Shown piece after piece: positions 1 to 12,302 of a stretch of DNA of 45,034 nt. The translations under genes were made by a program, and so were the position numbers. Source of the DNA: Desulfobacteraceae bacterium CG2_30_51_40 (GTDB taxonomy: Bacteria > Desulfobacterota > DSM-4660 > Desulfatiglandales > Desulfatiglandaceae); contig MNYJ01000123.1 of the NCBI GenBank assembly GCA_001874005.1, positions 1 to 45,034 of the forward strand, given 5' to 3'. A model generated the notes under the pieces. That model was not told the origin of the DNA. It did no database searches and saw nothing but the letters and a program-made list of their open reading frames with translations. Position 1 is the stretch's first letter. Every line of letters starts with the position of its first letter.

Positions 1-1
1 T

Positions 2-1288
2 GAACAGCTCGAAAGCGGCCCCTGGCCAAGCTTCGTTGCTGATGCAAAGAGGCTCGCCCTTCACAGAAGGAAGCTCAGCCAGGACAGGATGATGATTGAT
101 AGGGACGTTGTGGAGGATCTCCTCGGGCAGCTTGAGGTTTCTTTCAAGGACGGTGAGACCCACTGGAAACACGGTGGAATAGTAGGTGTTTTCGGTTACG
201 GAGGAGGCGTTATAGGAAGGTACTCTGACCTTCAGAAACAGTTCCCTTCTGTTGCACATTTCCACACAGTGCGAGTCAATCAGCCAGCAAGCAAATTCTA
301 TTCAAGCGATTATCTACGGTCTCTTTGCGATCTCTGGGAATATCGAGGAAGCGGCATGATGAACCTGCACGGCTCAACCGGTGATATCGTCTTTCTTGGA
401 ACATTTACAGAGCAGCTTGAGCCTATTTTTTACGAGCTTACCCATGTCATGCAGCAGGACCTCGGAGGCTCAGGATCAAACCTCAGGACCCCTTCTTGCT
501 GTATCGGTAAGGCCAGATGCGAATGGGCATGCATTGACACGCAGGATATGTGCTATGATTTCACCCAGCACTATCAGGATGAGCTTCATCGCCCTGCGTT
601 TCCTTACAAATTCAAATTCAAATTTGACGGATGCCCCAATTGCTGTGTTGCTTCCATAGCGCGCTCCGATATGTCATTTATCGGGACATGGCGCGACAAC
701 ATCCGCATAGACCAGGAGGCCGTACAGGCCTATATCGGTGGAGAGGTGCCGCCGAACGGCGGGGCCCACCAGGGAAGGGACTGGGGTAAATTCGACATCA
801 AGAAAGAGGTGTTGGATCTTTGCCCGACCCAGTGCATGTGGATGGAAGGCAAAAAGCTCATGATAGACGACAAGGAATGCACGCGCTGCATGCACTGCAT
901 AAACGTCATGCCGAAGGCATTGAGGCCCGGTAAGGATACCGGAGCGAGCATTCTTTTGGGAGCAAAGGCCCCGATACTCGAGGGTGCGCAGATGGCCACC
1001 CTGACGATTCCTTTCATCAAATGCGAGGCGCCTTATGACAACATCAAGGAAAAGGTTATAGAACCTATCTGGGACTGGTGGATGGAGGAAGGCAAGAACC
1101 GTGAAAGGCTGGGAGAACTTATCCAGAGGCAGGGAATCAGGAAACTGCTCCAGGTGCTAAATATACCTGCGATGCCTCAGGCAGTGAAAGAGCCGCGCTC
1201 CAACCCCTACATCTTCTGGAAAGAAGAAGATGTGCCAGGCGGATGGAAGAGAGATATCAAGGACTACCGCTCCAGACATGCGAGATAG
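2..1288 (+). CDS. dsrA: Dissimilatory sulfite reductase alpha subunit, 5' end cut by the window
   Basis: Catalytic-complex subunit that, with DsrB, reduces sulfite in the cytoplasm using siroheme and [4Fe-4S] clusters. The frame is open from base 2 (EQLESGPWPSF...), upstream of the first ATG at 89, so 428 residues are visible. Family members are about 437 long, so only roughly a dozen N-terminal residues are missing. Counting from the Met at 89, the siroheme-cluster cysteines have the classic spacing: C138-x5-C144 and C182-x3-C186. The inserted ferredoxin domain shows C245, C264, C267 and C270. The stop is followed 12 bp later by dsrB with an AGGAGG ribosome site. Identity is very secure. The reductive (not oxidative) type is inferred from the dsrD gene downstream. 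Confidence 0.97.
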   Translation, partial: EQLESGPWPSFVADAKRLALHRRKLSQDRMMIDRDVVEDLLGQLEVSFKDGETHWKHGGIVGVFGYGGGVIGRYSDLQKQFPSVAHFHTVRVNQPASKFYSSDYLRSLCDLWEYRGSGMMNLHGSTGDIVFLGTFTEQLEPIFYELTHVMQQDLGGSGSNLRTPSCCIGKARCEWACIDTQDMCYDFTQHYQDELHRPAFPYKFKFKFDGCPNCCVASIARSDMSFIGTWRDNIRIDQEAVQAYIGGEVPPNGGAHQGRDWGKFDIKKEVLDLCPTQCMWMEGKKLMIDDKECTRCMHCINVMPKALRPGKDTGASILLGAKAPILEGAQMATLTIPFIKCEAPYDNIKEKVIEPIWDWWMEEGKNRERLGELIQRQGIRKLLQVLNIPAMPQAVKEPRSNPYIFWKEEDVPGGWKRDIKDYRSRHAR

Positions 1289-1300
1289 GAGGTTTAACTG

Positions 1301-2491
1301 ATGGGACTTTCAACTAACAGGTTAGGACTTTACAATCCGGAAAAACCGATGGAAAACAGGCTCACGGATATGGGGCCGAGGCATTTTTGGCAGTATTTCC
1401 CACCGATTATCCAGAAGAATTACGGCAAATGGCTTTACCATGAGATACTCGAGCCCGGCGTACTTGTTCACGTGTCGGAGACGGGAGACAAGGTCTTTAC
1501 CGTGAGATGCGGCGGGGCCCGTTTCATGACCGTAGAGCACGTGCGTGAGATATGTGATATAGCCGACAAGTACTGCGGCGGCCATGTCCGTTTCACCACA
1601 AGAAACAATATAGAATTCATGGTGGAAAGCCTTGAAAAGCTGGATGCCCTCAAAAAGGATCTGACAGGCCGAAAGCATGTGACCGGAAGCCTCAAGTTCC
1701 CCATAGGCGGGACAGGCGCCGGTTTGACCAATATAGTTCACACACAGGGATATATCCATTGTCATACTCCGGCAACGGACGCCTCATCCATGGTCAAGGC
1801 TGTGATGGATGATCTGTTCGAATACTTTCAGGGTATGACCCTGCCTGCTCAGGTTAGGGTTTCAATGGCCTGCTGCCTCAACATGTGCGGCGCGGTTCAT
1901 TGCTCCGATATCGCCCTTCTGGGTTATCACAGGAAGCCCCCGATAGTGGACGCAGAGGTGCTGGATTCGGTATGCGAGATTCCACTGGTTATTGCAGCAT
2001 GCCCCACGGCGGCTATCAGTCCCACAAAGACTGAGACGGGCAAGAAGGCGGTAAAGATAAACGATGAACGCTGCATGTTCTGTGGAAACTGCTACACCAT
2101 GTGTATGGCCCTGCCCCTTTCTGATAGCCAGGGTGACTGCGTGACCATTTTGGCCGGCGGAAAGATTTCCAACAGGATCAATGCTCCCAGGTTTTCCAAG
2201 GTCGTCATTCCGGCACTGCCAAATAACTTCCCAAGATTCCCGGAGGTTTGTCAGTCGGTGAGGAAAATAATTGAAGTCTATGACTCCCATGCCAATAAGT
2301 ACGAAAGAATCGGAGACTGGGCCGCCAGGGTGGGATGGGAGAGATTTTTCGAGCTTTGCGACTTCCCGTTTTCCGAGCATCTTATTGATGATTACAGGCT
2401 TCAATACGATACCTATAGAACTTCCACCCTCTTTAAGTACTCTCCCGCTTCCTGGGAGGTCTCAAAGGCTGTCGGAGGCGTTGAGGATTAG
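1301..2491 (+). CDS. dsrB: Dissimilatory sulfite reductase beta subunit
   Basis: Partner of DsrA in the alpha2beta2 sulfite reductase; this subunit normally holds the catalytically active siroheme. It has 396 residues, slightly longer than the roughly 380 usual for the family. The siroheme/[4Fe-4S] ligands are visible as C154, C191, C192 and C196 (motif [12 protein letters not shown]). The ferredoxin domain follows with C234, C258, C261, C264 and C268 ([12 protein letters not shown]). The start is supported by AGGAGG at 1287-1292, 8 bp before the ATG. It is in one operon with dsrA and dsrD. No residue expected for catalysis appears to be lost. The downstream intergenic gap before dsrD is about 30 bp. 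Confidence 0.97.
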
Positions 2492-2523
2492 TTCGCTTAT
2501 TCATGGAACAAAAGGAGATGGCT

Positions 2524-2754
2524 ATGGAAGATATCAAGAAGGCGATTTTGGAGTTCGCTGAGACAAACAAAAAATCAAAGTTCTATTTCAGCGATATGGA
2601 AAAGGGCGTTAAGAAGATAAAAGCTGATGTCTCTACAAGGGACATAAAGAAGGCTGCTACCGCCCTGGTGAACGAAGAAAAGCTGATCTATTTTTCTACT
2701 GGAAGCAGCACAATGTATGGGCTGAAGGGAAGGGGTCAGACTGAGGATCACTAG
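2524..2754 (+). CDS. dsrD: DsrD, small winged-helix activator of DsrAB
   Basis: Small cytoplasmic protein with a winged-helix fold found next to reductive dsrAB; published biochemistry describes it as an allosteric activator of DsrAB. From ATG 2524 it is 76 residues, close to the roughly 78 of known DsrD. It shows the family's features: a KSKFYFSDM segment near residue 20 and a C-terminal STMYGLKG motif. Three in-frame ATGs exist (2503, 2518, 2524). The AGGAG at 2513-2517 lies directly against 2518 but 6 bp before 2524, so 2524 is chosen. Its presence argues for sulfite reduction rather than sulfur oxidation. A strong hairpin follows at 2791. Confidence 0.93.
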   Translation: MEDIKKAILEFAETNKKSKFYFSDMEKGVKKIKADVSTRDIKKAATALVNEEKLIYFSTGSSTMYGLKGRGQTEDH

Positions 2755-2790
2755 CAGATCTGGTGTATCTTAACTGATTAACTACTGCGG

Positions 2791-2819
2791 GAGGCCGTCT
2801 TTCTTTTGAAGGCGGCCTC
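2791..2819 (+). terminator. Intrinsic-type terminator after dsrABD
   Basis: GAGGCCG at 2791-2797 pairs with CGGCCTC at 2813-2819, and the stem extends inward to about 12 bp with G-T wobbles around a loop of about 5 nt. The trailing T-run is weak (TTCG), so some read-through into the TPR gene 25 bp downstream is possible. It separates the dsr operon from the next gene pair. Confidence 0.7.
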
Positions 2820-2844
2820 TTCGCATTATTAGCGGAGTGTGCGG

Positions 2845-3471
2845 ATGAAAGAACCGGAGTCGTCGGAGGCATTCATACAGAGGCAGAAGGAAATCCTTGC
2901 CGAGAACCCTGAGTGCGCCAACAGCCAGTATAATATCGGTGTTGTGCTCATGAAGGAGGGAAGGCTTGATGAGGCCATCAAGGCCTTTGATGAAGCTATC
3001 GCCAACAGCGCGAGGATGTTTGAGGCCTTTGTCAATCTGGGATATATCTATTTCAGCAGGGGCGAAGTGGAGAAGGTGCTGGATGTAAACAAAAGGGCAG
3101 TGGAACTGGAGCCCAGGTACGCAAGGGGATATGCAAATATAGGATTTGCGTATCTCCAGATGGGAAGATCGGATGAGGCAATAGAGGCCCTCAAAATGGC
3201 CGTTGAGCTTAATCCCGATATCGTTCAGGCCTATGCCAACCTCGTTAGCGCCTATCTGCAAAAAGGGGAGATCGAGACTGCGGTTGCTACCGGCGAGTCC
3301 CTCGTCGCAAAGGCCCCTGACTTTGCGCTCGGACAAAATAATCTTGCGAGCGCCTATTATATGAAGGGCGACTTCGCGAAGGCCGTGAAGCACCTCGATA
3401 AGGCCGTTGCCCTTGGATTTGATCCTCATCCTTTATTTTTGGAAAAACTCAAGGCATACAGGACCGCCTGA
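2845..3471 (+). CDS. Tetratricopeptide-repeat protein
   Basis: Soluble repeat protein of 208 residues made almost entirely of four to five TPR units. The repeats carry the usual pattern (for example YNIGVVLMKEGRLDEAIKAF, then YANIGFAYLQMGRSDEAIEA). No signal peptide or membrane segment is seen, so a cytoplasmic protein-interaction role is likely; the partner is unknown. A GTG at 2839 also opens the frame, but GCGGAG at 2832-2837 is 7 bp from ATG 2845 and only 1 bp from the GTG. The stop TGA overlaps the start ATG of the next gene (TGATG), so the two are probably translated together. Proximity to dsrABD is suggestive only, because a terminator lies between. Confidence 0.88.
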   Translation: MKEPESSEAFIQRQKEILAENPECANSQYNIGVVLMKEGRLDEAIKAFDEAIANSARMFEAFVNLGYIYFSRGEVEKVLDVNKRAVELEPRYARGYANIGFAYLQMGRSDEAIEALKMAVELNPDIVQAYANLVSAYLQKGEIETAVATGESLVAKAPDFALGQNNLASAYYMKGDFAKAVKHLDKAVALGFDPHPLFLEKLKAYRTA

Positions 3472-4091
3472 TGGCGAATGCTCTCTTTGAAGAATACGAG
3501 CGTCTGGTGAAGACGGCAGACGCCGCCTTCGCAAAGATCAGGACGGATTTCAGAGAAAAGGTTCGTTGCGCGCATGGTTGCGCGGATTGCTGCCATGCTG
3601 CCTTCGGTCTTTTCTTTGTGGAAGCGGCATACATTCGCATGCGCTTTCAGGAACTTGACAGGAAGAGAAGAAGGGCTATCCTGAACCGCTGCGCAAAGAG
3701 CGAACGGGAGATCGCAAGACTTTGGAAGAAAATGACAGGAACTTCCGGTGAAGCAGGGGCTGGAGAGGTGGATCTATCCACCATACGGATAAAGTGCCCG
3801 CTTCTTTCAGACGACCACCTTTGCGAGCTTTATTCCGCAAGGCCGATTACATGCAGGGTCTATGGGATACCTACGTCTTCGGGCGGGAAGGCAATGGTTT
3901 GCCCCAAGGCGGGCTTTGAAAAGGGATACGGCTATCCTGCTTTTGACCTGGGGGAGGCACAGCGTGTTCTCTATGATCTGTCAGTAAAGCTGCTTGCCTT
4001 GAAATCCGCCAGGGAAACAGCATCCCTGCTTATATCGGTCTCCAAGGCCTTGGCTACCCCTCTTGAAGACCTTATGGCCGGCAGGCTCTGA
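3471..4091 (+). CDS. YkgJ-family cysteine-cluster protein (putative Zn/Fe-binding)
   Basis: The 206-residue protein carries the CxxxCxxCC signature near the N terminus (C33, C37, C40, C41) and further cysteines around residues 104 to 145 (IKCPLLSDDHLCELYSARP, then CRVYGIP and MVCPKAGF). This is the pattern of the YkgJ/UPF0153 family, thought to bind a zinc or iron-sulfur centre; the biochemical role is not established. The start overlaps the TPR gene's stop by one base. The 3' end overlaps the convergent gene at 4072-5217 by 20 bp. Family assignment is good; function is unknown. Confidence 0.85.
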   Translation: MANALFEEYERLVKTADAAFAKIRTDFREKVRCAHGCADCCHAAFGLFFVEAAYIRMRFQELDRKRRRAILNRCAKSEREIARLWKKMTGTSGEAGAGEVDLSTIRIKCPLLSDDHLCELYSARPITCRVYGIPTSSGGKAMVCPKAGFEKGYGYPAFDLGEAQRVLYDLSVKLLALKSARETASLLISVSKALATPLEDLMAGRL

Positions 4092-5217
4092 CGGCTTCAT
4101 ACAGATCATGAGCATGATCTTCGATGCGGGCTGCGAGCAAATTGTAATCCTCAGGATTCTCGATGGAAATCATGTCCGCCACGGGCTCAAGAAGATTAAG
4201 AAATTCCTTTATCTCAAATGAGTTGAGAAGGGATACTATGTCAGTTAACTGAATGCCCTCAAGCCTGTCATTTGCTTCCAGCTCCTTTATCCCCTCAAGA
4301 AACCCGTCAACCGTCCCGTAACAGCCGACTTTGCCTGCCCAGGCCGAACTCCCTGTTCCTTCAAACCTGTCAATGCGCATCCTTACCGAAATCTCAATGA
4401 GAAAATAAACCAGAGCAACGATGGGTGAAGGCCGGGCGCTTAGCTGAAAAAGCGGAGAAGGGCTGTATCCCCTGGCGGAGACAAGCCTGATGTCTGTTAT
4501 GCCGTTTCTTATTCGCACGACGAAATCCCCCGCGGCATGATGCCACGGCCGGATCTGTGAAAAGGAAAAGACATCGTAGTAGAGGGTCAGGATTTTTGAG
4601 GAAAGCCGGAATATGTCATAGACCTCTTCACTGGAAGCCCTTCGGTACCCCGTCGTGGTATCCCATAGTGTGACAATATCTTCATTGCGCCAGTCCGTCC
4701 CGGTGAGGTGCCATTCATGATAGTCATCAAACCACCGGACAAGGGCAAAGAGGAAGTATTCTCCCTTCTTACCGACAGTTACTTTTGTCTTTCTAAGAGG
4801 CATTGGAATCAGGGAAGGATTAATTCTTGATGAGAGCAATTCAAGAGTCTGGTATTCATTTTCAAGCTGGGCGGCACCTGAGGAAGAAAGGGCTCCGTTC
4901 AGGCCCAGCCTGATCTTGCGTCCCTCAGCATGGATGTCTATGCTTGCAACGTGATAAACGGCTCCATGCTTTTCACTCCTTACTACAACCTTTTCTAGGT
5001 CTTTACGGGTGAAGCTCACCCCTGATAACGCCTCCAGACAGACAAGAAGAGGCTGTGTATCCTCTTCAAGCAGCGCGGAGGCTGCTGCTCTGAAATAGTC
5101 TCCAAGGGTCAAGAACGGATGCTCTTTAAAGTTGCCTACACGGTAAGGAAGGGCCAGTTCCTCCTCATCAATGCTCCTTTCTCCGCCGGGGCCTCCAAAG
5201 AGAAAGGAGATTTTCAT
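4072..5217 (-). CDS. Unknown conserved-looking protein with faint kinase-fold motifs
   Basis: I do not recognise this 381-residue protein. It has no signal peptide or clear membrane segment. The region from about residue 82 to 175 reads like a kinase N-lobe: alternating beta-type stretches, an ENEYQTLELL helix, then a FLFALVRWFDD segment where a hinge would be. Further on, PWHHAAGDFVVRI resembles the HxxxGD catalytic loop of aminoglycoside/fructosamine-kinase-like enzymes, and the TDIRLVSARGY stretch could sit where the metal-binding DFG-like segment would be. This is inference from pattern only. The ATG overlaps the upstream gene's TGA (ATGA), so it is translationally coupled to the zinc-ribbon protein, which probably works with it. 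The 3' end overlaps the YkgJ gene by 20 bp. Confidence 0.75.
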   Translation of the reverse strand: MKISFLFGGPGGERSIDEEELALPYRVGNFKEHPFLTLGDYFRAAASALLEEDTQPLLVCLEALSGVSFTRKDLEKVVVRSEKHGAVYHVASIDIHAEGRKIRLGLNGALSSSGAAQLENEYQTLELLSSRINPSLIPMPLRKTKVTVGKKGEYFLFALVRWFDDYHEWHLTGTDWRNEDIVTLWDTTTGYRRASSEEVYDIFRLSSKILTLYYDVFSFSQIRPWHHAAGDFVVRIRNGITDIRLVSARGYSPSPLFQLSARPSPIVALVYFLIEISVRMRIDRFEGTGSSAWAGKVGCYGTVDGFLEGIKELEANDRLEGIQLTDIVSLLNSFEIKEFLNLLEPVADMISIENPEDYNLLAARIEDHAHDLYEAVRACRP

Positions 5218-6317
5218 AACCGCTCAAGGGCTTCTTTCGCAAGAGCGCGCACAGTCACGGTTTCCATAGAACCTTTTTTATATACCTCAAGCTCTGAATC
5301 GTCCTCCAGTAAAGATTCGAGGTCTTCTCCGGCTTCAACTGCGCCGAGATTAGCAAGCAGAATAGCTGCCAATCCCCTTATCTCACTGGAAGGATCGCGC
5401 AAAAGAGGGATAAAGTGGTATGTGTATTTCCTCAACAGGCCGGGACTTGAGACGCTTATTGTCCCGAGTGCGGCTAGGACGTCTCTAAGCAGGATGCGAT
5501 CTCCGGACAACCTAAGGAGATGAGGCAGATAACCTCCGAAGCGTTTGGGGTTTGCGCCAATTATTTCACCTATGGCAGCAACCGATCCCCAGCTCGATGC
5601 TGCGGTGTCCGTAACGGATGTGATAAGCCCCTGAAGCAGGTTTATTACCACAGCGGGCTCCCTCTCGGCGATAACGGCAGCCGTCCTTCCCATGGCCTCG
5701 GAGGCTTTGCTGCGCATGATCGGGTCAACCGAATAAAGCATACGCTGAAGGGACCGGATGACCCTGGAGTCGAAGGCAGCTATTTCAAGCAGCGCCGCCA
5801 TATTGTAATCGCGGATATAGCCTTCTATCTCCCCTTTTGAATAGCTTCTCCTCAACCTTGACTTGCCTGCGGAATATGTACTGGATGTCCCTGGAACTTC
5901 CAATTTGGAGGATGGCAAGGGCTCCACTTCACAACTCCTGCTTTTCATAAGGATGAAGTAGAGGACTCCGGCGATCCTTCTGCCGTCATAGGTGCCTCCC
6001 GGCACGATGAGGTGGCTCTCGATATCATAGTTTTCAACCCTGTCTTGAAGATAATCTTCATCGGGCATGAGGTTCCAGGCCTTATCCCAATCTCCTCCAC
6101 AGCCATATACAAGTGCCTCGGACATGGCAGATCCAAGGTTGTGCCCGGTAGCGTCATGGGCGTACGTCGCCCCACACCGGCAGGTTCCTAATTCCATGCC
6201 CCTTGAGCTTATGCCTTCGACCTCGCAGGGCCTTTCCAAGGGGTTTCCGCAGAAAGGGCACTTGGGCTCCCTGACCAGCTCTCTGTTCGTGAATCTGCTT
6301 TCCATCAAATTTCTCAC
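5214..6317 (-). CDS. Zinc-ribbon plus HEAT-like repeat protein, function unknown
   Basis: The 367-residue protein starts with a cysteine pair (KCPFCGNPL) followed by TCRCGATYAHDATGHNLG, giving a likely zinc ribbon within the first 60 residues. A middle region (about 60-150) is unrecognised. From about residue 165 to the end there are helical repeats typical of HEAT/PBS-lyase-type proteins (for example SVDPIMRSKASEAMGRTAA and LRDPSSEIRGLAAILLANLG). The reading frame opens with GTG at 6317; an ATG lies 12 bp in. Neither has a strong ribosome site. It overlaps the start of the 381-residue partner by 4 bp. The combination suggests a scaffold or regulatory role, but no function is claimed. Confidence 0.8.
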   Translation of the reverse strand: MRNLMESRFTNRELVREPKCPFCGNPLERPCEVEGISSRGMELGTCRCGATYAHDATGHNLGSAMSEALVYGCGGDWDKAWNLMPDEDYLQDRVENYDIESHLIVPGGTYDGRRIAGVLYFILMKSRSCEVEPLPSSKLEVPGTSSTYSAGKSRLRRSYSKGEIEGYIRDYNMAALLEIAAFDSRVIRSLQRMLYSVDPIMRSKASEAMGRTAAVIAEREPAVVINLLQGLITSVTDTAASSWGSVAAIGEIIGANPKRFGGYLPHLLRLSGDRILLRDVLAALGTISVSSPGLLRKYTYHFIPLLRDPSSEIRGLAAILLANLGAVEAGEDLESLLEDDSELEVYKKGSMETVTVRALAKEALERL

Positions 6318-6328
6318 TGTCTAACCCT

Positions 6329-6387
6329 CATGCCCTGGCAGGGCACAACGAAGAAGTTCAAAGTTCAAAGTTCAAACTTCAAAGATC
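6329..6387. repeat. Partial REP-like element followed by GTTCAAA tandem words
   Basis: CATGCCCTGGCAGGGCACAA matches the left arm of the REP-like family at 12307 and 23475. It is directly followed at 6354-6387 by four near-copies of the word GTTCAAA. It lies between two minus-strand genes. Confidence 0.6.
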
Positions 6388-6636
6388 AAGCCCCATTTCC
6401 TCCGCTCGTTCGTCAAACTCAAAACCGACAATCTCAAATCCGGAGCCGGAAGAGCGAAATCGAAGAAGCCAGTTCCCATATTTTTCACCGGCAAAACCGC
6501 ATGTTATAATGCCGTTTCTGGCGTGCAACTTCTTTAACTTTTCAACGACCACGTCTTGAAACAGATCGCTTATGAGCAGAACGTCATCCTCATCAAGCGA
6601 AACTCCAGTCACGTTTTTTTGAATCAAAGGTTCCAT
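6379..6636 (-). CDS. Small unknown protein
   Basis: An 85-residue acidic protein (from ATG 6636; a GTG one codon upstream also opens the frame) without signal peptide or recognisable motif. It contains an EDDVLLISDLFQDVVVEKLKK helix-like stretch and ends in FEFDERAEEMGLDL. It lies 30 bp downstream of the FmdB zinc-ribbon gene on the same strand, so the two are likely co-transcribed. Codon-position bias looks like that of the neighbours and no competing frame exists. I do not recognise the family. Confidence 0.6.
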   Translation of the reverse strand: MEPLIQKNVTGVSLDEDDVLLISDLFQDVVVEKLKKLHARNGIITCGFAGEKYGNWLLRFRSSGSGFEIVGFEFDERAEEMGLDL

Positions 6637-6666
6637 CACGGCTCGAGGATCAACAAGAGACCTTTC

Positions 6667-6912
6667 TTAGCGTGAATGCCCCGGAAGATCGAGGGTTACA
6701 CATTGGTTGGAGCCGCCGCAAGACTTGGTGGTAATCTTTGGCTTTGCTCCGTTCGGACCCGGTCCCATGGCGTAATTTGTCGAACTTACGACTCGCCGGC
6801 AATTCTCCGCGCTGCATTTGGGGCAGGATAGATCAATGGAGTCCTCTGAGTGCAGAAAAAGTCTTTCAAACACTTCTCCGCATTCGAGGCATCTGAATTC
6901 AAATATAGGCAT
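6667..6912 (-). CDS. FmdB-family zinc-ribbon protein
   Basis: An 81-residue protein that starts MPIFEFRCLECGEVFERLF, the standard opening of the FmdB/CxxC_CxxC_SSSS zinc-ribbon family, with the second pair at SCPKCSAENC. The family is widespread and often called regulatory, but most members have no assigned role. The longer frame to 6933 is rejected because GGAG sits 7 bp before the ATG at 6912 and the family begins exactly there. The glycine- and lysine-rich tail (about residues 50-81) contains two extra cysteines that are not part of the core ribbon. Confidence 0.9.
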   Translation of the reverse strand: MPIFEFRCLECGEVFERLFLHSEDSIDLSCPKCSAENCRRVVSSTNYAMGPGPNGAKPKITTKSCGGSNQCVTLDLPGHSR

Positions 6913-7060
6913 TGGCTGACTCCAAGTTAACAATTTATTTCCTGGGACGTGAAATCATAACCGCTCAGGTTGTGAGATCCACGGTAAGTTGGATTTAGTT
7001 CTACATATTTATTGACATACTTGATGCATCCAGGCATGGAGCAAGTGTTCGGCGCTCTGT

Positions 7061-7087
7061 AACTTTGAACCCCTGAACTTTGAACCC
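7061..7087. repeat. GTTCAAAG-type dispersed words (complement strand)
   Basis: Two copies of AACTTTGAACCC lie in the 219-bp gap between the yjbQ-like and fmdB-like genes. The same word family occurs at 6354, 9326, 24449 and 38189. Confidence 0.5.
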
Positions 7088-7131
7088 GTGCAATTTTAAA
7101 AATTTAATCTCGGCGGAGACAAAGTCAAACA

Positions 7132-7524
7132 TCAGATGAACTGGATCAAGGCGCTGCGTGAGCGTGGTCCGTCAAATTCACAGAAAAATATGGACTGCCA
7201 TGTCCCGAGCAAGAGCTTTGCGTTTTGAATCGGTATTACGACTGAACTCCCGACAAGTGCAGCCTTGATATGGCTGTCGGAGTTGCCTTCAGCATGGCGA
7301 TAATTTCCGGTGGCCGGGACCATTTCGGAGAGCGCCGCCAGGATGTCGCTTTTGACATCCGGGTCCGCCCCTTCATTTATAGTAACTCCGGCAGTCGTAT
7401 GGGGGATATAGACAAGACACATTCCGTCTGCCTTGCCGGAATTATCAAGCTCCTTTTTGACAAGGGCAGTTATATCAACCATCTCACTTCTACCTCTGGT
7501 GCTGATCTTGATTGCGACAGCCAT
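7132..7524 (-). CDS. YjbQ/UPF0047 family protein
   Basis: A 130-residue protein with the family's hallmark HTTAGVTINEGADPDV (about residues 49-64), GNSDSHIKAALVGSS, and a C-terminal GTWQSIFFCEFDGPRSR. Proteins of this fold form trimers; they are often annotated as secondary thiamine-phosphate synthase because one member complements thiE, but the physiological role is uncertain. The frame can be extended to a TTG at 7551, but GAGG lies about 7 bp before ATG 7524, where the family normally starts. It is 32 bp downstream of the 395-residue protein gene and belongs to the pyrR transcription unit. Confidence 0.9.
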   Translation of the reverse strand: MAVAIKISTRGRSEMVDITALVKKELDNSGKADGMCLVYIPHTTAGVTINEGADPDVKSDILAALSEMVPATGNYRHAEGNSDSHIKAALVGSSVVIPIQNAKLLLGTWQSIFFCEFDGPRSRSALIQFI

Positions 7525-7556
7525 ATAATCCCTCGCTTGACTATTTTTCAAGTCCT

Positions 7557-8744
7557 TCAGGGTGCTAGTATGAGACCGCTTTCTGTATTTTCTTCAAGTT
7601 CCATGTCGGCGTCAGTCTCATCCGCATTGCTCTCCAAAACCCGGGAAACTAATAACCTTATGGCGGGGTTTGACATACCGCCTTCTCCCTCATCCATTTC
7701 CCTGGCGGCAGACAAGGCAAGCCTCTTAAGCCGATCTTCCCCTCTTTTACGGTGAAAGTAGGCGGTTTCATAAAGGATATCAGCGATGGAATTCCTTCTG
7801 TCAGGGGTAAATATCTCCAGGGCGAGCTTATCCTCGATCTCCCTTTCCCTGTCCCTGAGAAGCGCATTGGATAGCGTAAGAGGGCTCTGCCGCACTTCAT
7901 TGAGCTTATCCATATATGAAGCAACGGCATAATCTGCAGGGATCCACATATTCAGGGGCGCATTGGAAAAAAGCTCTTCGGCCTCAGAGGATGTCAATAT
8001 ATCCTTTCTTTGCCTGGATTCATCTCTAAGATCAGCGTGGATGGGACCTTCATAGCCCTGTACTCTGTTTAGAAGGAACGGCCTCATCTCCTTATAGGCC
8101 AATGCTGAGGGGGTTCCCTGACTGCCTGCAGTGCAGGCTGCTTCCATGATTGTAAAAAAAAGAGATAGATCAACCTCCACGAGCGGCCCGGCAGCGGAAT
8201 CAACCTCCTGTACCATGCTGCCTAAAAGTTTCTTCGGCAGGGGGCCGAATACGAACTCTCGAATTCCTTCTGTCGGTGATACCATCCCTATCCCTGCATG
8301 TATGCCTTTCACCGGCGAATGGCTTGTAAACAAAACCGCTCTTGTGCCTGCAATGTCCATTACGGGACCCATAGAGGCCGAAAGTTCATCACTGAATCTT
8401 TCCTTTTTCAGTAGAGAGTCGCCAACAGAAGCCGCATTAAGGGTTTCAACTTCTATCCCGGCATTCTTAAGTTTGAAGGCCAGGCGCCTGGCGGATTTCA
8501 TAACCGATTTATCGCAAAACTTCTCCGCAAGGGCGGACACGAGGGCTTCAGTTCCTGCGTATCCTGCAGGTATTGCTTCAATGAGGGCGCAGGCCTCATC
8601 AGGGTCACTTACCCTCTCGACAATCTGACCGACATCCGATGCGTCCATCTGAGAAGCTATGGCGGATATGTGTCCGCTTACTTGACTTTGTTTTTCATGG
8701 GACTTCTTACGTCTCAGGCCTGATCTCTTTCGATGTGTCGTCAT
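7557..8744 (-). CDS. Unknown 395-residue protein in the pyrR operon
   Basis: I do not recognise this protein. It has a strongly basic N terminus (about eleven Lys/Arg in the first 20 residues), then a mainly helical body. The segment KSVMKSARRLAFKLKNAGIEVE near residue 80 is a basic amphipathic helix. No signal peptide or membrane helix is seen. The second half is rich in EEL/REREIEDKLA-type helices, and the C terminus is very acidic. It starts one base after the pyrR stop, so it is almost certainly co-translated with pyrR. A nucleic-acid or ribosome contact through the basic N terminus is possible but is only inference. Confidence 0.8.
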   Translation of the reverse strand: MTTHRKRSGLRRKKSHEKQSQVSGHISAIASQMDASDVGQIVERVSDPDEACALIEAIPAGYAGTEALVSALAEKFCDKSVMKSARRLAFKLKNAGIEVETLNAASVGDSLLKKERFSDELSASMGPVMDIAGTRAVLFTSHSPVKGIHAGIGMVSPTEGIREFVFGPLPKKLLGSMVQEVDSAAGPLVEVDLSLFFTIMEAACTAGSQGTPSALAYKEMRPFLLNRVQGYEGPIHADLRDESRQRKDILTSSEAEELFSNAPLNMWIPADYAVASYMDKLNEVRQSPLTLSNALLRDREREIEDKLALEIFTPDRRNSIADILYETAYFHRKRGEDRLKRLALSAAREMDEGEGGMSNPAIRLLVSRVLESNADETDADMELEENTESGLILAP

Positions 8745-8745
8745 A

Positions 8746-9288
8746 TTAATCCTGTCTTCCTTCTACTGTAACACAGTCAGAAAAGCCAGCCTCCTCAAGG
8801 TAAACATTTACCGTCTCAAATGCTTTAGCGCTATAAATCATTCCAGCGTAGTTGGCCATGATAGGCAGTTCCCGACAGGCCTCACCCCTGTCCACCAATA
8901 CCGCCAGTTCTATTCTCTTAGGCCTGCCGTAATCCATAAGGGCATCCATCGCGGCCCTTACCGTCCGGCCGGTAAAGATGACATCATCAACGAGCACTAT
9001 TGTCCTGTCATCCACTCCGAACGAGATGTCCGTCTTCCTCACGACGGGGGCAGGCCCTATCCTTGTCCAGTCATCCCTGTAGAGGGTTATGTCCAATGTG
9101 CCTATAGAAGGCGCGCAGCCGCTCAAAGAGGTGAGTATCTTACTTAGCCTCATGGCGAGAAATGCCCCGCCGGTTATGATGCCTACCAGCACCAGATTTT
9201 TTTCATCAGGGTGCCTCTTTAAGATATTTTCCGCCATCTTCTGGAGGGCTTCACGTATTTCTCGTTCAGTGAGAAGTTTGTTCTTCAT
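8746..9288 (-). CDS. pyrR: PyrR, pyr operon regulator / uracil phosphoribosyltransferase
   Basis: The 180-residue protein has the PRPP-binding loop IVLVDDVIFTGRT at residues 97-109 and the PyrR-type TLDITLYRDDW stretch at about 64-74, which separate it from ordinary uracil phosphoribosyltransferases. In Bacillus, PyrR binds the pyr mRNA leader in the presence of UMP and also converts uracil and PRPP to UMP. Here it is not next to pyr biosynthetic genes; carB, pyrE and pyrG are elsewhere in the window. A good promoter lies about 260 bp upstream (9549-9578), leaving a long leader. The start codon has only a distant GGAG. Confidence 0.93.
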   Translation of the reverse strand: MKNKLLTEREIREALQKMAENILKRHPDEKNLVLVGIITGGAFLAMRLSKILTSLSGCAPSIGTLDITLYRDDWTRIGPAPVVRKTDISFGVDDRTIVLVDDVIFTGRTVRAAMDALMDYGRPKRIELAVLVDRGEACRELPIMANYAGMIYSAKAFETVNVYLEEAGFSDCVTVEGRQD

Positions 9289-9325
9289 AAGACGATGATC
9301 TCCATTAAAAAAAACTAACTACTCC

Positions 9326-9348
9326 AGGTTCAAAGTTCAAGGGTTCAC
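9326..9348. repeat. GTTCAAAG-type repeat, 23 bp identical to 38189-38211
   Basis: The 23 bases here recur without change at 38189-38211. They form part of a low-complexity family also seen at 6354, 7061 and 24449. Confidence 0.7.
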
Positions 9349-9548
9349 TGTTAACGGTTAGAAAGCGATGAAGATTAGACGGGCTACGGATATTGGGGCC
9401 TGGCAACCGGCACGTGAATTAACCCATAAAGTTTAGCATTTAACAAAGGAGCCAAGATTGACATTCGTTTATCCATCAACTATCTCAAGAAATATGAAAA
9501 GCCGACTAACCGTGAATCTGACAGCCGGAACAGTTACTTAAAAAAGAC

Positions 9549-9578
9549 AGTATATCAGTTCATAAAAAAAATAGTCAA
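9549..9578 (-). promoter_or_regulatory. Sigma-70-type promoter for pyrR
   Basis: Read on the minus strand: TTGACT at 9578-9573, an 18-bp spacer, TATACT at 9554-9549. It predicts a transcript start near 9542 and an untranslated leader of about 250 nt before pyrR. Confidence 0.6.
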
Positions 9579-9709
9579 TATATTTGTAGCCTTGCAGAGG
9601 TCTAAACCGATGTTGCGCCTGGTTAATTGTCTTTGCCGGTATTGACTTGAGGGAGAAGGGGAGCTAATGATGGATTTTAATGGCAGCATGGGGGTTAAAG
9701 GGAGATTAC

Positions 9710-10411
9710 TTGACGGAAGAGATACTAAAAAATCTTTACAATGAAATCGGATATGAATTTCGTAATCCGGAGATGGCAAGACAGGCCTTCCGGCATTCTT
9801 CATTCGTCCACGAGAACCCTGGTGATCTTAGGGGAGATAACGAGAGGCTTGAGTTTCTGGGAGACGCGGTCCTCGATCTTGCCGTGGGGCACATGCTTAT
9901 GAATCTTCTTCCTGAGGCCAGGGAAGGTGAACTTTCCAAGCTCAGGGCATCTGTTGTCAGTGAAAACGGGCTTAGCCGCGCTGCCAGGGAACTGAGGCTT
10001 GGAGAGATGATCCTTCTTGGAAAGGGTGAAGAGGCGAGCGGCGGAAAGGACAAGCCCTCCATAATGGCCGATACGCTTGAGGCATTGATAGGAGCCGTTT
10101 ATCTGGACGGCGGGCTTGACAATGCCATGGTGGTTATAGAGAGGATTATCGGCCCTCTTTTAAGACAGACGATTGAAAAGGGGCTTGCAGACGATTCCAA
10201 GAGTCTTCTTCAGGAATATACCCAGCAGAACTGCAAGTCGCTTCCGGCTTATCACCTGCTGGCCGAGAGCGGCCCTCCCCATGATAAGACCTTCAGGGTA
10301 AGCGTGTGGCTGAGTGGAAGGCTTCTTGCCGAGGGAATCGGGAAAAGCAAGAAAGAGGCCGAACAGGAGGCAGCAAAGGAGGCCTATTCTTGCCTGATCA
10401 ACCACCAGTGA
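9710..10411 (+). CDS. rnc: Ribonuclease III
   Basis: Endonuclease for double-stranded RNA that matures rRNA and some mRNAs. The signature NERLEFLGDAVLDLAVGH lies near residues 44-61 with the catalytic acidic residues, a second acidic motif appears at ADTLEALIGAVYLDGG, and the C-terminal double-stranded-RNA-binding domain ends KKEAEQEAAKEAY. From TTG 9710 the protein is 233 residues, typical of the family. The TTG has AAAGGGAG at 9697-9704, about 5 bp away, whereas ATG 9680 adds ten residues (MAAWGLKGDY) with no good site. The last codons overlap the next gene. The order rnc, radical SAM, era is compact and probably one operon. Confidence 0.95.
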   Translation: MTEEILKNLYNEIGYEFRNPEMARQAFRHSSFVHENPGDLRGDNERLEFLGDAVLDLAVGHMLMNLLPEAREGELSKLRASVVSENGLSRAARELRLGEMILLGKGEEASGGKDKPSIMADTLEALIGAVYLDGGLDNAMVVIERIIGPLLRQTIEKGLADDSKSLLQEYTQQNCKSLPAYHLLAESGPPHDKTFRVSVWLSGRLLAEGIGKSKKEAEQEAAKEAYSCLINHQ

Positions 10412-11421
10412 TAGTGCCTGTCTTTCTTCCTTTTCAGGGTTGTAAGGGCCGATGTGTATTTTGTGACCAAAAGGCCATAACCTCGATTGATGAAAAGGGT
10501 GTCAGCACCGAAACCATTGTCCGTTTTCTCAGTGATGCCTTTTCAAAGACGAGACGCCACGAGGGGAAAAAAGTAATAGTTGCCTTCTACGGGGGCACCT
10601 TCACAAATAATCCACTGCCTGTAATAAGGCAGATACTTGCTGCGACAAGCTCTTTTCGCGAGAAGGGGCTCTTTTCGTCCATACGAGTATCAACAAGGCC
10701 CGATTCCCTTGAAGAGGAGAAACTCCTTTTGATGAAGGAATACGGGGTTGATACGGTAGAATTGGGTGTCCAGTCAATGAACGATGATGTCCTTAACCGG
10801 GCTGGAAGAGGGCATAGTTCGGAGCATACCAGGGATGCTTTTTATCTCCTCAAATCGCTCGGCTTTGAAGTCGGTGCCCAGCTTATGGCGGGGCTTCCCG
10901 GGGATTCCCCTGCAATCTTTATGGATTCTGTCGAAGAGGTGATAGCCTTGAGGCCTTCAATGGTAAGGCTCTATCCTACCGTGGTCATTGAAGGAACCGC
11001 ACTGGCAGGTCTCTACGCCGGTGGTCGGTACACGCCTTTAGGGCTTGAAGAGACGGTAAGCCTCTGCGCGCAGGCCTTAGCCCGCTTTGAAGAGGAGCAA
11101 ATACAAGTAATAAGGATAGGGCTTGCCCCCTCTCAGGAGCTTATCGAAGGAAGAAGGATGATTGACGGCCCCTGGCACCCTTGCCTTGGTTTCCTGGTGA
11201 GGTCGCGTCATTATCTGCAAAAGGCAATAAAATCGCTTCCTTCTTCAGATTGGATGGGGCTTGATGTGCGTGTCAGAGTGCCCTCAAGAGAGATAACTCT
11301 TCTGAGAGGATTCAGAAATCAAGGCCTTTCTGCTCTGAAAGCCGCGCTGTCCGCAAAAACCCTTACAGTTACCCCTGATGATTCCATCGCCCGGGGTAAA
11401 TTGGTTGTGGAACCGATATGA
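10390..11421 (+). CDS. Radical SAM protein (Elp3/YhcC-like)
   Basis: A 343-residue radical SAM enzyme with the cluster motif GCKGRCVFC (CxxxCxxC) near residue 17-25, an AFYGGTF strand and an ELGVQSMNDDVLNRAGRGH segment. These are characteristic of the Elp3/oxygen-independent coproporphyrinogen oxidase-like branch. The substrate is unknown; tRNA modification is a reasonable guess from the Elp3 similarity and from its place between rnc and era. The frame extends upstream to 10306 inside rnc, but AAGGAGG at 10376-10382 is 7 bp from TTG 10390. A GTG at 10408, overlapping the rnc stop, is the alternative. The stop overlaps the era ATG by 4 bp. Confidence 0.88.
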   Translation: MPDQPPVIVPVFLPFQGCKGRCVFCDQKAITSIDEKGVSTETIVRFLSDAFSKTRRHEGKKVIVAFYGGTFTNNPLPVIRQILAATSSFREKGLFSSIRVSTRPDSLEEEKLLLMKEYGVDTVELGVQSMNDDVLNRAGRGHSSEHTRDAFYLLKSLGFEVGAQLMAGLPGDSPAIFMDSVEEVIALRPSMVRLYPTVVIEGTALAGLYAGGRYTPLGLEETVSLCAQALARFEEEQIQVIRIGLAPSQELIEGRRMIDGPWHPCLGFLVRSRHYLQKAIKSLPSSDWMGLDVRVRVPSREITLLRGFRNQGLSALKAALSAKTLTVTPDDSIARGKLVVEPI

Positions 11422-12302
11422 GCTTCCATTCTGGTTTCATAGGATTTCTGGGCCCTCCCAACTCCGGGAAATCAACCCTCTTTAACCGTATCCTCGGAAG
11501 GAAGCTTGCCATCGTTTCCCCGAGGCCGCAGACCACAAGAAACCGCATCATGGGTGTCCTCAACGGAGAGGATTATCAGATGGTCTTGGTGGATACCCCG
11601 GGAGTACACAGGGCGAAGAATCCGCTTCACAGGAGCATGGTTGACTCTGCCCTTGCTTCATGCAGGGAGGTGGATGCCCTTGTCCTTGTGGCCGAAGTGA
11701 TAGGCTTTCCGGTTGAGGAGATGGGTTCGATCTTAGGTGTCTTCAGGGAACTGACCAAGCCGGCAATGCTGGTGCTTAACAAGATTGATCTGATAGAGCC
11801 TATAGATCTGCTTCCCCTGATTGAGAAGGCCATGGACCTTTATCCCTTTGAAAGTATTGTGCCGCTTTCCGCCCGAACCGGGGACGGTATAGAAGGACTC
11901 CTTGAGGAATTGAGTAAAAGACTTGCAGAAGGGCCCAGGTTTTTTCCTGATGGAATCATAAGCGATCAGCCGGAGAGTTTTATTGTGGCAGAGACAATAA
12001 GGGAAAAGATATACTTTGTTGTGGGAGAAGAGCTGCCTTATTGCGCTGCCGTGACGGTTGAAGGCATTGAAAGGGATGGAAAAGGAGACCTCATCAAGAT
12101 ACGAGGTGTCATCCATGTTGAAAGGGAAGGCCAAAAGGCCATATTTATCGGAAAGGGCGGAAAGACCATAAAGACAATAGGGACAATGGCACGAAAAGAA
12201 TTGGAGCGTATGATGGATACCAGGATATTTCTGGATCTCTCGGTAAGGGTCGAAAAGAACTGGACGAGGGATGCGAGGGCGCTTAGAAGACTCGGGTACT
12301 AA
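11418..12302 (+). CDS. era: GTPase Era
   Basis: Ribosome-assembly GTPase that binds the 3' end of 16S rRNA. The 294-residue protein has G1 (GPPNSGKST, with Pro and Ser where most Era have Arg and Val), G3 (DTPGVH), G4 (NKID) and a C-terminal KH domain with FIGKGGKTIKTIG. The ATG overlaps the previous gene's TGA. Linkage of era to rnc is common in bacteria and supports both calls. The gene is followed by a REP-like repeat rather than a clear terminator of its own. Confidence 0.97.
   Translation: MSFHSGFIGFLGPPNSGKSTLFNRILGRKLAIVSPRPQTTRNRIMGVLNGEDYQMVLVDTPGVHRAKNPLHRSMVDSALASCREVDALVLVAEVIGFPVEEMGSILGVFRELTKPAMLVLNKIDLIEPIDLLPLIEKAMDLYPFESIVPLSARTGDGIEGLLEELSKRLAEGPRFFPDGIISDQPESFIVAETIREKIYFVVGEELPYCAAVTVEGIERDGKGDLIKIRGVIHVEREGQKAIFIGKGGKTIKTIGTMARKELERMMDTRIFLDLSVRVEKNWTRDARALRRLGY

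Follow-up and report, generated by a model that had tools for sequence, protein, structure and literature searches.

Gene arrangement beside dsrABD

The window analyzed here, a 45,034-nt stretch of contig MNYJ01000123.1 from Desulfobacteraceae bacterium CG2_30_51_40 (GCA_001874005.1), opens with a rightward series of genes. dsrA (89–1288, plus strand) is named by its position and its relatives beside dsrB rather than by a family-model scan, and is followed by dsrB (1301–2491, plus strand; 480 bits against TIGR02066, above the cut-off) and dsrD (2503–2754, plus strand; PF08679, 85.6 bits). Between dsrD and the last gene of the series lies a gene for a TPR protein, here called T (2839–3471, plus strand; TPR_1, 112 bits), and the last gene, CxxC (3471–4091, plus strand), encodes a putative metal-binding protein with a CxxCxxCC motif (PF03692, 26.7 bits against a cut-off of 23). 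The series converges on three opposite-strand genes, namely K (4072–5217, minus strand; a 381-aa ORF), H (5214–6317, minus strand; a 367-aa ORF with a GTG start), and p86 (6379–6639, minus strand), which encodes a small conserved protein upstream of H that has no Pfam or NCBIfam match.

The original prediction singled out K and H as a coupled pair joined by an ATGA overlap and located 1.3 kb from dsrABD. Both details can be read from the sequence, as the two minus-strand frames share the ATGA at 5217–5214, and dsrD ends at 2754, with K 1.3 kb away. On its other side, the tail of K overlaps that of the convergent CxxC gene by 20 bases. An Rfam scan of window positions 1–12000 returned zero matches, and a promoter and terminator scan of positions 1–7600 gave nothing useful. 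Farther along, between UPF0047 and PyrR-like genes, the window encodes a 395-aa protein without a Pfam or NCBIfam family (7557–8744, minus strand), relatives of which accompany K in 7 of the 80 loci analyzed as the best of at least 338 K relatives.

The zinc-ribbon protein H and the predicted kinase-fold protein K

H was predicted to combine a zinc ribbon with helical repeats, and both elements are borne out. Four cysteines of the zinc ribbon (Cys20, Cys23, Cys46, and Cys48) are invariant in 47 H proteins, and the repeats are of the HEAT type (PF13513, HEAT_EZ, 29.4 bits against a cut-off of 27). Residues 166–364 match NF045662, the “DVU0298 family”, with 144.9 bits against a cut-off of 75, and a search of 14 control genomes with NF045662 gave zero matches. 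H thus shares its HEAT domain with the DVU0298 family and differs from it by the added N-terminal zinc ribbon. The AlphaFold2 model of H has a pLDDT of 87.9 and a pTM of 0.60; a Foldseek search with the whole model matched only HEAT/armadillo-type proteins, so that the N-terminal part is left without an assigned fold. DVU0298 itself is tabulated as a carbon monoxide dehydrogenase gene in PMC2901600, an entry that, as it stands in the table, looks like a locus-tag slip.

In some sulfate reducers, such as G238, the two halves of H are encoded by distant genes, one for a separate zinc-ribbon protein (about 115 aa) and one for a HEAT protein of the DVU0298 type (L120, 3323–3988; L121, 3514–3861). 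The HEAT-domain relative in L120 weakly matches the bilin lyase CpeY (E 3e-4), and a fusion of H with the TPR protein S described below (L113) matches NblB (E 6e-4). These similarities hint at a possible handling of tetrapyrroles, or could reflect general HEAT similarity.

The kinase-like character that had been proposed for the 381-residue protein K is visible in the predicted fold only, and not by sequence methods. K has no Pfam or NCBIfam match at E ≤ 1 and no match to the APH profile (PF01636) above the gathering score, and APH is absent from the 15 Pfam families that are matched by any of 78 K members at E ≤ 0.1. A sequence search of the PDB with K found no relative, the best hit being a designed protein (E 0.47), and when the K profile was compared by hhalign with two APH proteins from the same genome, the probabilities were 0.3 and 0.2 percent. 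Three APH proteins were also aligned, but the quality of the result was too poor for use.

The AlphaFold2 model of K was built from an alignment of K with 77 relatives (78 sequences, taken from the best 80 of at least 338 K relatives) and has a mean pLDDT of 91.9 and a pTM of 0.91. A Foldseek search of the PDB with this model gave 45 matches at E ≤ 0.001, every one a kinase, with a best E of 6.3e-5. Upon realignment of the top 1000 chains, small-molecule kinases rank first among the structural matches; the highest Z scores are those of N-acetylhexosamine 1-kinase (Z 13.8, rmsd 4.2, 251 residues), homoserine kinase (Z 13.4, rmsd 4.0, 233 residues), and methylthioribose kinase (Z 13.2, rmsd 4.7, 251 residues), and Bud32 (Z 12.5, rmsd 4.8, 221 residues) and choline kinase (Z 11.8, rmsd 4.6, 255 residues) score lower. 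The model shows the two lobes that define the protein-kinase-like (PKL) superfamily, and the assignment of K to this fold is well supported by the prediction. With the small-molecule PKL kinases, K shares this two-lobed fold over residues 39–381 (Z 13.8 to 11), but it differs from them in lacking a Pfam or PDB sequence match, in its changed aspartate positions, and in its other invariant residues. The kinase fold is likewise shared with Bud32, the ATPase of KEOPS and a kinase-fold member of a multi-protein complex; genes for KEOPS partners were not noticed beside K, except for a Sua5-like gene (cluster c28) in four neighborhoods among the best 80 of at least 338 relatives. Apparent N-terminal extensions of K in two genomes (L119 and L125) have no Pfam match, may reflect wrong starts, and were set aside.

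The active site of K was mapped by predicted strands (β7, residues 232–237; β8, residues 240–245) and conservation. The HxxxGD-like segment noted in the original prediction is present as His226-His-Ala-Ala-Gly-Asp231, within a predicted catalytic loop that spans P224-W-H-H-A-A-G-D231; Gly230 and Asp231 are invariant, and His226 and His227 are each kept in 73 of the 78 K sequences. In a canonical kinase, the catalytic aspartate lies five residues ahead of the asparagine that precedes β7. In this strand-based mapping, the catalytic-aspartate (HxD) position of K is occupied by His226 and the position of the asparagine by Asp231 (78/78). The metal-binding aspartate of the DFG motif, expected after β8, corresponds to Ser247 in the window and to threonine in 72 of 78 sequences, and is followed by the invariant Arg249. 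Neither the catalytic Asp/Asn pair nor the DFG aspartate of active PKL kinases is therefore found at the positions assigned by the strands, and both catalytic aspartates of K appear to be replaced. At the same time, Asp231, Arg249, Glu168, His170, Arg281, and Asp283 are invariant in all 78 sequences, as are Gly85, Trp162, Trp185, and Trp225. If the mapping is correct, this pattern argues for a site that is under selection and is not an ordinary kinase site.

Linkage to dsrB and the conserved cassette

A presence profile against sulfite reductase genes, proposed as a check on the pair, reveals tight linkage. In a phylum survey of 296 genomes, for which a completeness of 90% or more was requested, K was found in 48 genomes by profiles derived from close relatives, which may overlook divergent K proteins, and dsrB was found above the cut-off in 145. 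dsrB is present in 47 of the 48 K genomes (Fisher p 9.6e-16; the exception is G143), and, at the level of the 96 families counted in the present analysis, in 20/20 families with K versus 30/76 families without it (p 2.4e-7). Full-length H occurs in 58 genomes of the survey, 57 of which have dsrB (exception G324). The distance between K and dsrB in the 47 genomes is 6 kb or less in 30; in 4, the two genes lie farther apart on the same contig (10 to 228 kb), and in 13 they lie on different contigs. K and H are thus almost confined to dsrB genomes, usually beside dsrB, a well-supported association that combines restriction to dsrAB with linkage to it. The converse does not hold: 98 of the 145 dsrB genomes have no detectable K, which argues against a strict requirement, and 62 of 145 have neither K nor full-length H. 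As many of the genomes are metagenome-assembled (MAGs), an absent dsrB or K may reflect an assembly gap.

Among the genome of the window and 60 relatives, K is present in 34 of 61. In the 29 loci of relatives, viewed with about 1.5 kb of flank, H is encoded in 26 and T or CxxC in 25, and the genes mostly converge as they do in the window. Of the 26 loci with both H and K, 18 show the identical 4-base overlap. A broader search of genome contigs yielded at least 587 candidate stretches and at least 338 K relatives, of which the best 80 loci were analyzed. Within these best 80, the 4-base overlap is found in 27 of 51 loci that carry both genes on the same strand; p86 is present in 24, CxxC in 49, and a TPR match in 54, of which a few are unrelated TPR proteins. 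K is neighbored by H and CxxC in 35 of these loci and otherwise by the TPR gene, BirA (cluster c26), or dsrA, dsrB, or dsrD. Relatives of dsrA lie beside dsrB in 53 of the 80. At least one of dsrA, dsrB, and dsrD is found no more than 5.5 kb from K in 57 loci, and no more than 2 kb away in 45. DsrN (cluster c5) is encoded in 39 of the 80 neighborhoods and DsrC (cluster c7) in 18. Together with T, CxxC, and p86, the H–K pair belongs to a larger conserved module, in which H–K faces the CxxC–TPR genes beside dsrABD. A RimK-like ATP-grasp protein of 286 aa (cluster c6; L045, 7286–8146) is also encoded near K in 23 of these 80 loci; no ORF was seen at the matching place in the window.

Where K does not adjoin H, a different gene usually does. 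Among H regions from 40 genomes, 2 have K downstream of H (G152 and G110) and 38 do not. Of these 38 genomes, 36 encode T upstream of H and a SNAP-like TPR protein, S (PF13424, PF14938), which either comes after H or, in 11 fusions, extends the C-terminus of H (for example L113, L114, L115, L118, and L133–L168). G047 and G062 depart from this pattern, and the contig of G062 is short. Conversely, S is found in none of the 41 loci with adjacent H and K drawn from the best 80 of at least 338 K relatives, and in none of 27 such loci from the search of relatives' genomes. The idea that K strictly replaces S was abandoned, as S follows H in five loci that have K at another place in the cluster (L036, L039, L041, L055, and L078) and L094 holds K together with an S-like gene. 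T and H look like the core, which is joined by K or S and sometimes by both. Since S usually follows H where K does not, the K step is not universal, which is more in keeping with a helper than with a catalyst of one of the steps in sulfite reduction.

The best 80 of at least 338 K relatives come mostly from Desulfobacterota MAGs, and further carriers among them are Nitrospirota, a Nitrospinota MAG, Desulfotomaculum copahuensis, a Peptococcaceae MAG, and a Desulfofervidaceae MAG. Named isolates with K are D. copahuensis (L073), delta proteobacterium NaphS2 (L066), and Desulfoferrobacter suflitae (L107), in which H was not seen within the K locus. K occurs in 4 of 148 Nitrospirota genomes, all four among the 73 with dsrB above the cut-off, and the association by count is weak because 69 dsrB genomes lack K; in all four, K lies 1.8–2.1 kb from dsrB, as expected if the island had moved as a whole.

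Twenty-five of the best 80 loci contain neither dsrA nor dsrB, and 24 of the corresponding genomes were searched with a dsrB search that had passed in 7/7 genomes already known to carry dsr genes. dsrB was found above the cut-off in 17 of the 24, a partial or linked sign of dsr in 3 (a broken dsr-like match in G346, dsrD near K in G357 (L081), and a sub-cut-off fragment in G361), and no dsrB in 4 (G351, G358, G359, and G360). K adjoins a radical-SAM-type gene in three genomes that lack a dsrB match (L068, 4628–7282, and L096, 1983–4451, pair c70; L116, 4170–6637, PF04055, E 3.6e-4), and these loci may represent another context in which the K family occurs. In L089 (8939–16140), on a 3.2-Mb chromosome of a genome without a dsrB match, K lies close to DsrC-type and DsrN-type genes.

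A possible accessory module for DsrAB

The original prediction proposed that the pair could be a modification or sensing module linked to sulfate respiration. Neither of the outcomes named there as refuting was observed, as the predicted fold is related to kinases and the pair occurs in close linkage with sulfite reductase genes. The link to dsr stands; a role in modification is doubtful, given His and Ser/Thr at the expected catalytic aspartate positions, and sensing is a possible role. The presence of the H–K pair with the sulfite reductase genes of several bacterial phyla suggests an unrecognized helper of this enzyme. We infer an accessory complex in which K would be a non-canonical kinase-fold subunit and which may help to assemble DsrAB, load its cofactors, or control its activity. 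An accessory complex, rather than a pathway step, is indicated by the HEAT, TPR, and zinc-ribbon scaffolds, the putative metal-binding CxxC protein, the DsrN and DsrC neighbors, the near restriction to dsr genomes, and the optional presence. Our preferred reading, held tentatively and at somewhat less than even confidence, is that K and H are subunits of a module of T, H, K, and CxxC that serves DsrAB by assembly or cofactor loading. In such a module, H and T would be docking scaffolds, and CxxC would handle a metal. K would bind a nucleotide or another anionic ligand in its remodeled kinase cleft and could give the complex its switch or its ligand-binding arm, and the module would load or assemble DsrAB, be it with siroheme amide, with Fe–S clusters, or by the docking of subunits. 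Assembly or cofactor loading is favored over a sensor or regulator and over an active phosphotransferase.

A sensory role is a lesser possibility, in which K, as a pseudokinase-type sensor, would bind a nucleotide or sulfur oxyanion and act through H to adjust how active DsrAB, DsrC, or DsrD is or how strongly it is expressed, with no part in building the enzyme. A kinase fold with both catalytic aspartate positions changed and yet an invariant polar set would suit such a sensor, as would the linkage of K and H to dsr, and zinc ribbons and repeat scaffolds, both present in the module, are common in regulatory complexes; Pfam and NCBIfam searches, however, did not reveal a DNA-binding domain, a receiver domain, or a second-messenger domain among the proteins of the module. 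A bolder form of the assembly reading appears unlikely as a whole, namely that K represents a new kinase-fold branch whose rebuilt loop (HHAAGD, then T-x-R) accommodates siroheme amide or a sulfur oxyanion, within an unnoticed DsrAB assembly machine (T, H, K or S, and CxxC) of several phyla.

More doubtful still is an active phosphotransferase with an unusual set of catalytic residues, whose substrate would be a small molecule or one of the Dsr-system proteins. The top-ranking small-molecule kinases among the structural matches and the invariance of Asp231 would agree with such an enzyme. So would two positions mapped by predicted strands only, position 103 (Lys or Arg in 65 of 78 sequences) and the acidic helix-C position 121 (Glu or Asp in 78 of 78), as their separation by 18 residues is the spacing of the β3 Lys/helix-C Glu pair in kinases. 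Position 103 is, however, Arg in the window and neither Lys nor Arg in 13 of 78 sequences, and the presence of His226 and Ser/Thr247 at the two expected catalytic aspartate positions makes ordinary phosphotransfer doubtful. That K and H are neighbors of dsr by shared history only, with a role unrelated to sulfite reduction, is highly improbable: a few K genes do stand at a distance from dsr or belong to genomes in which no dsrB match was found, and some of them adjoin a radical-SAM-like gene, but a genome whose K is distant nearly always has dsrB (as in G094, in which the H–K/CxxC–TPR cassette lies 228 kb from dsrB), and the proximity of K to dsr recurs in different gene orders.

The K module is encoded within the same gene islands as DsrD, DsrN, and DsrC. 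DsrN has an assigned role in siroheme amidation (PMC10504309), and no assigned role was found for K, H, T, or CxxC, which are absent from the available portion of that dsr synteny study. A description of the H–K pair or its module was likewise not found in the accessible parts of the open-licence literature, including PMC10102598, PMC10504309, PMC13293266, PMC6338057, PMC4215793, and PMC2901600. K and H, which track dsrAB and lie beside it also in Nitrospirota and Desulfotomaculum, supply named genes for the questions of how siroheme amide and Fe–S clusters enter DsrAB and which proteins other than DsrC and DsrD act on it.
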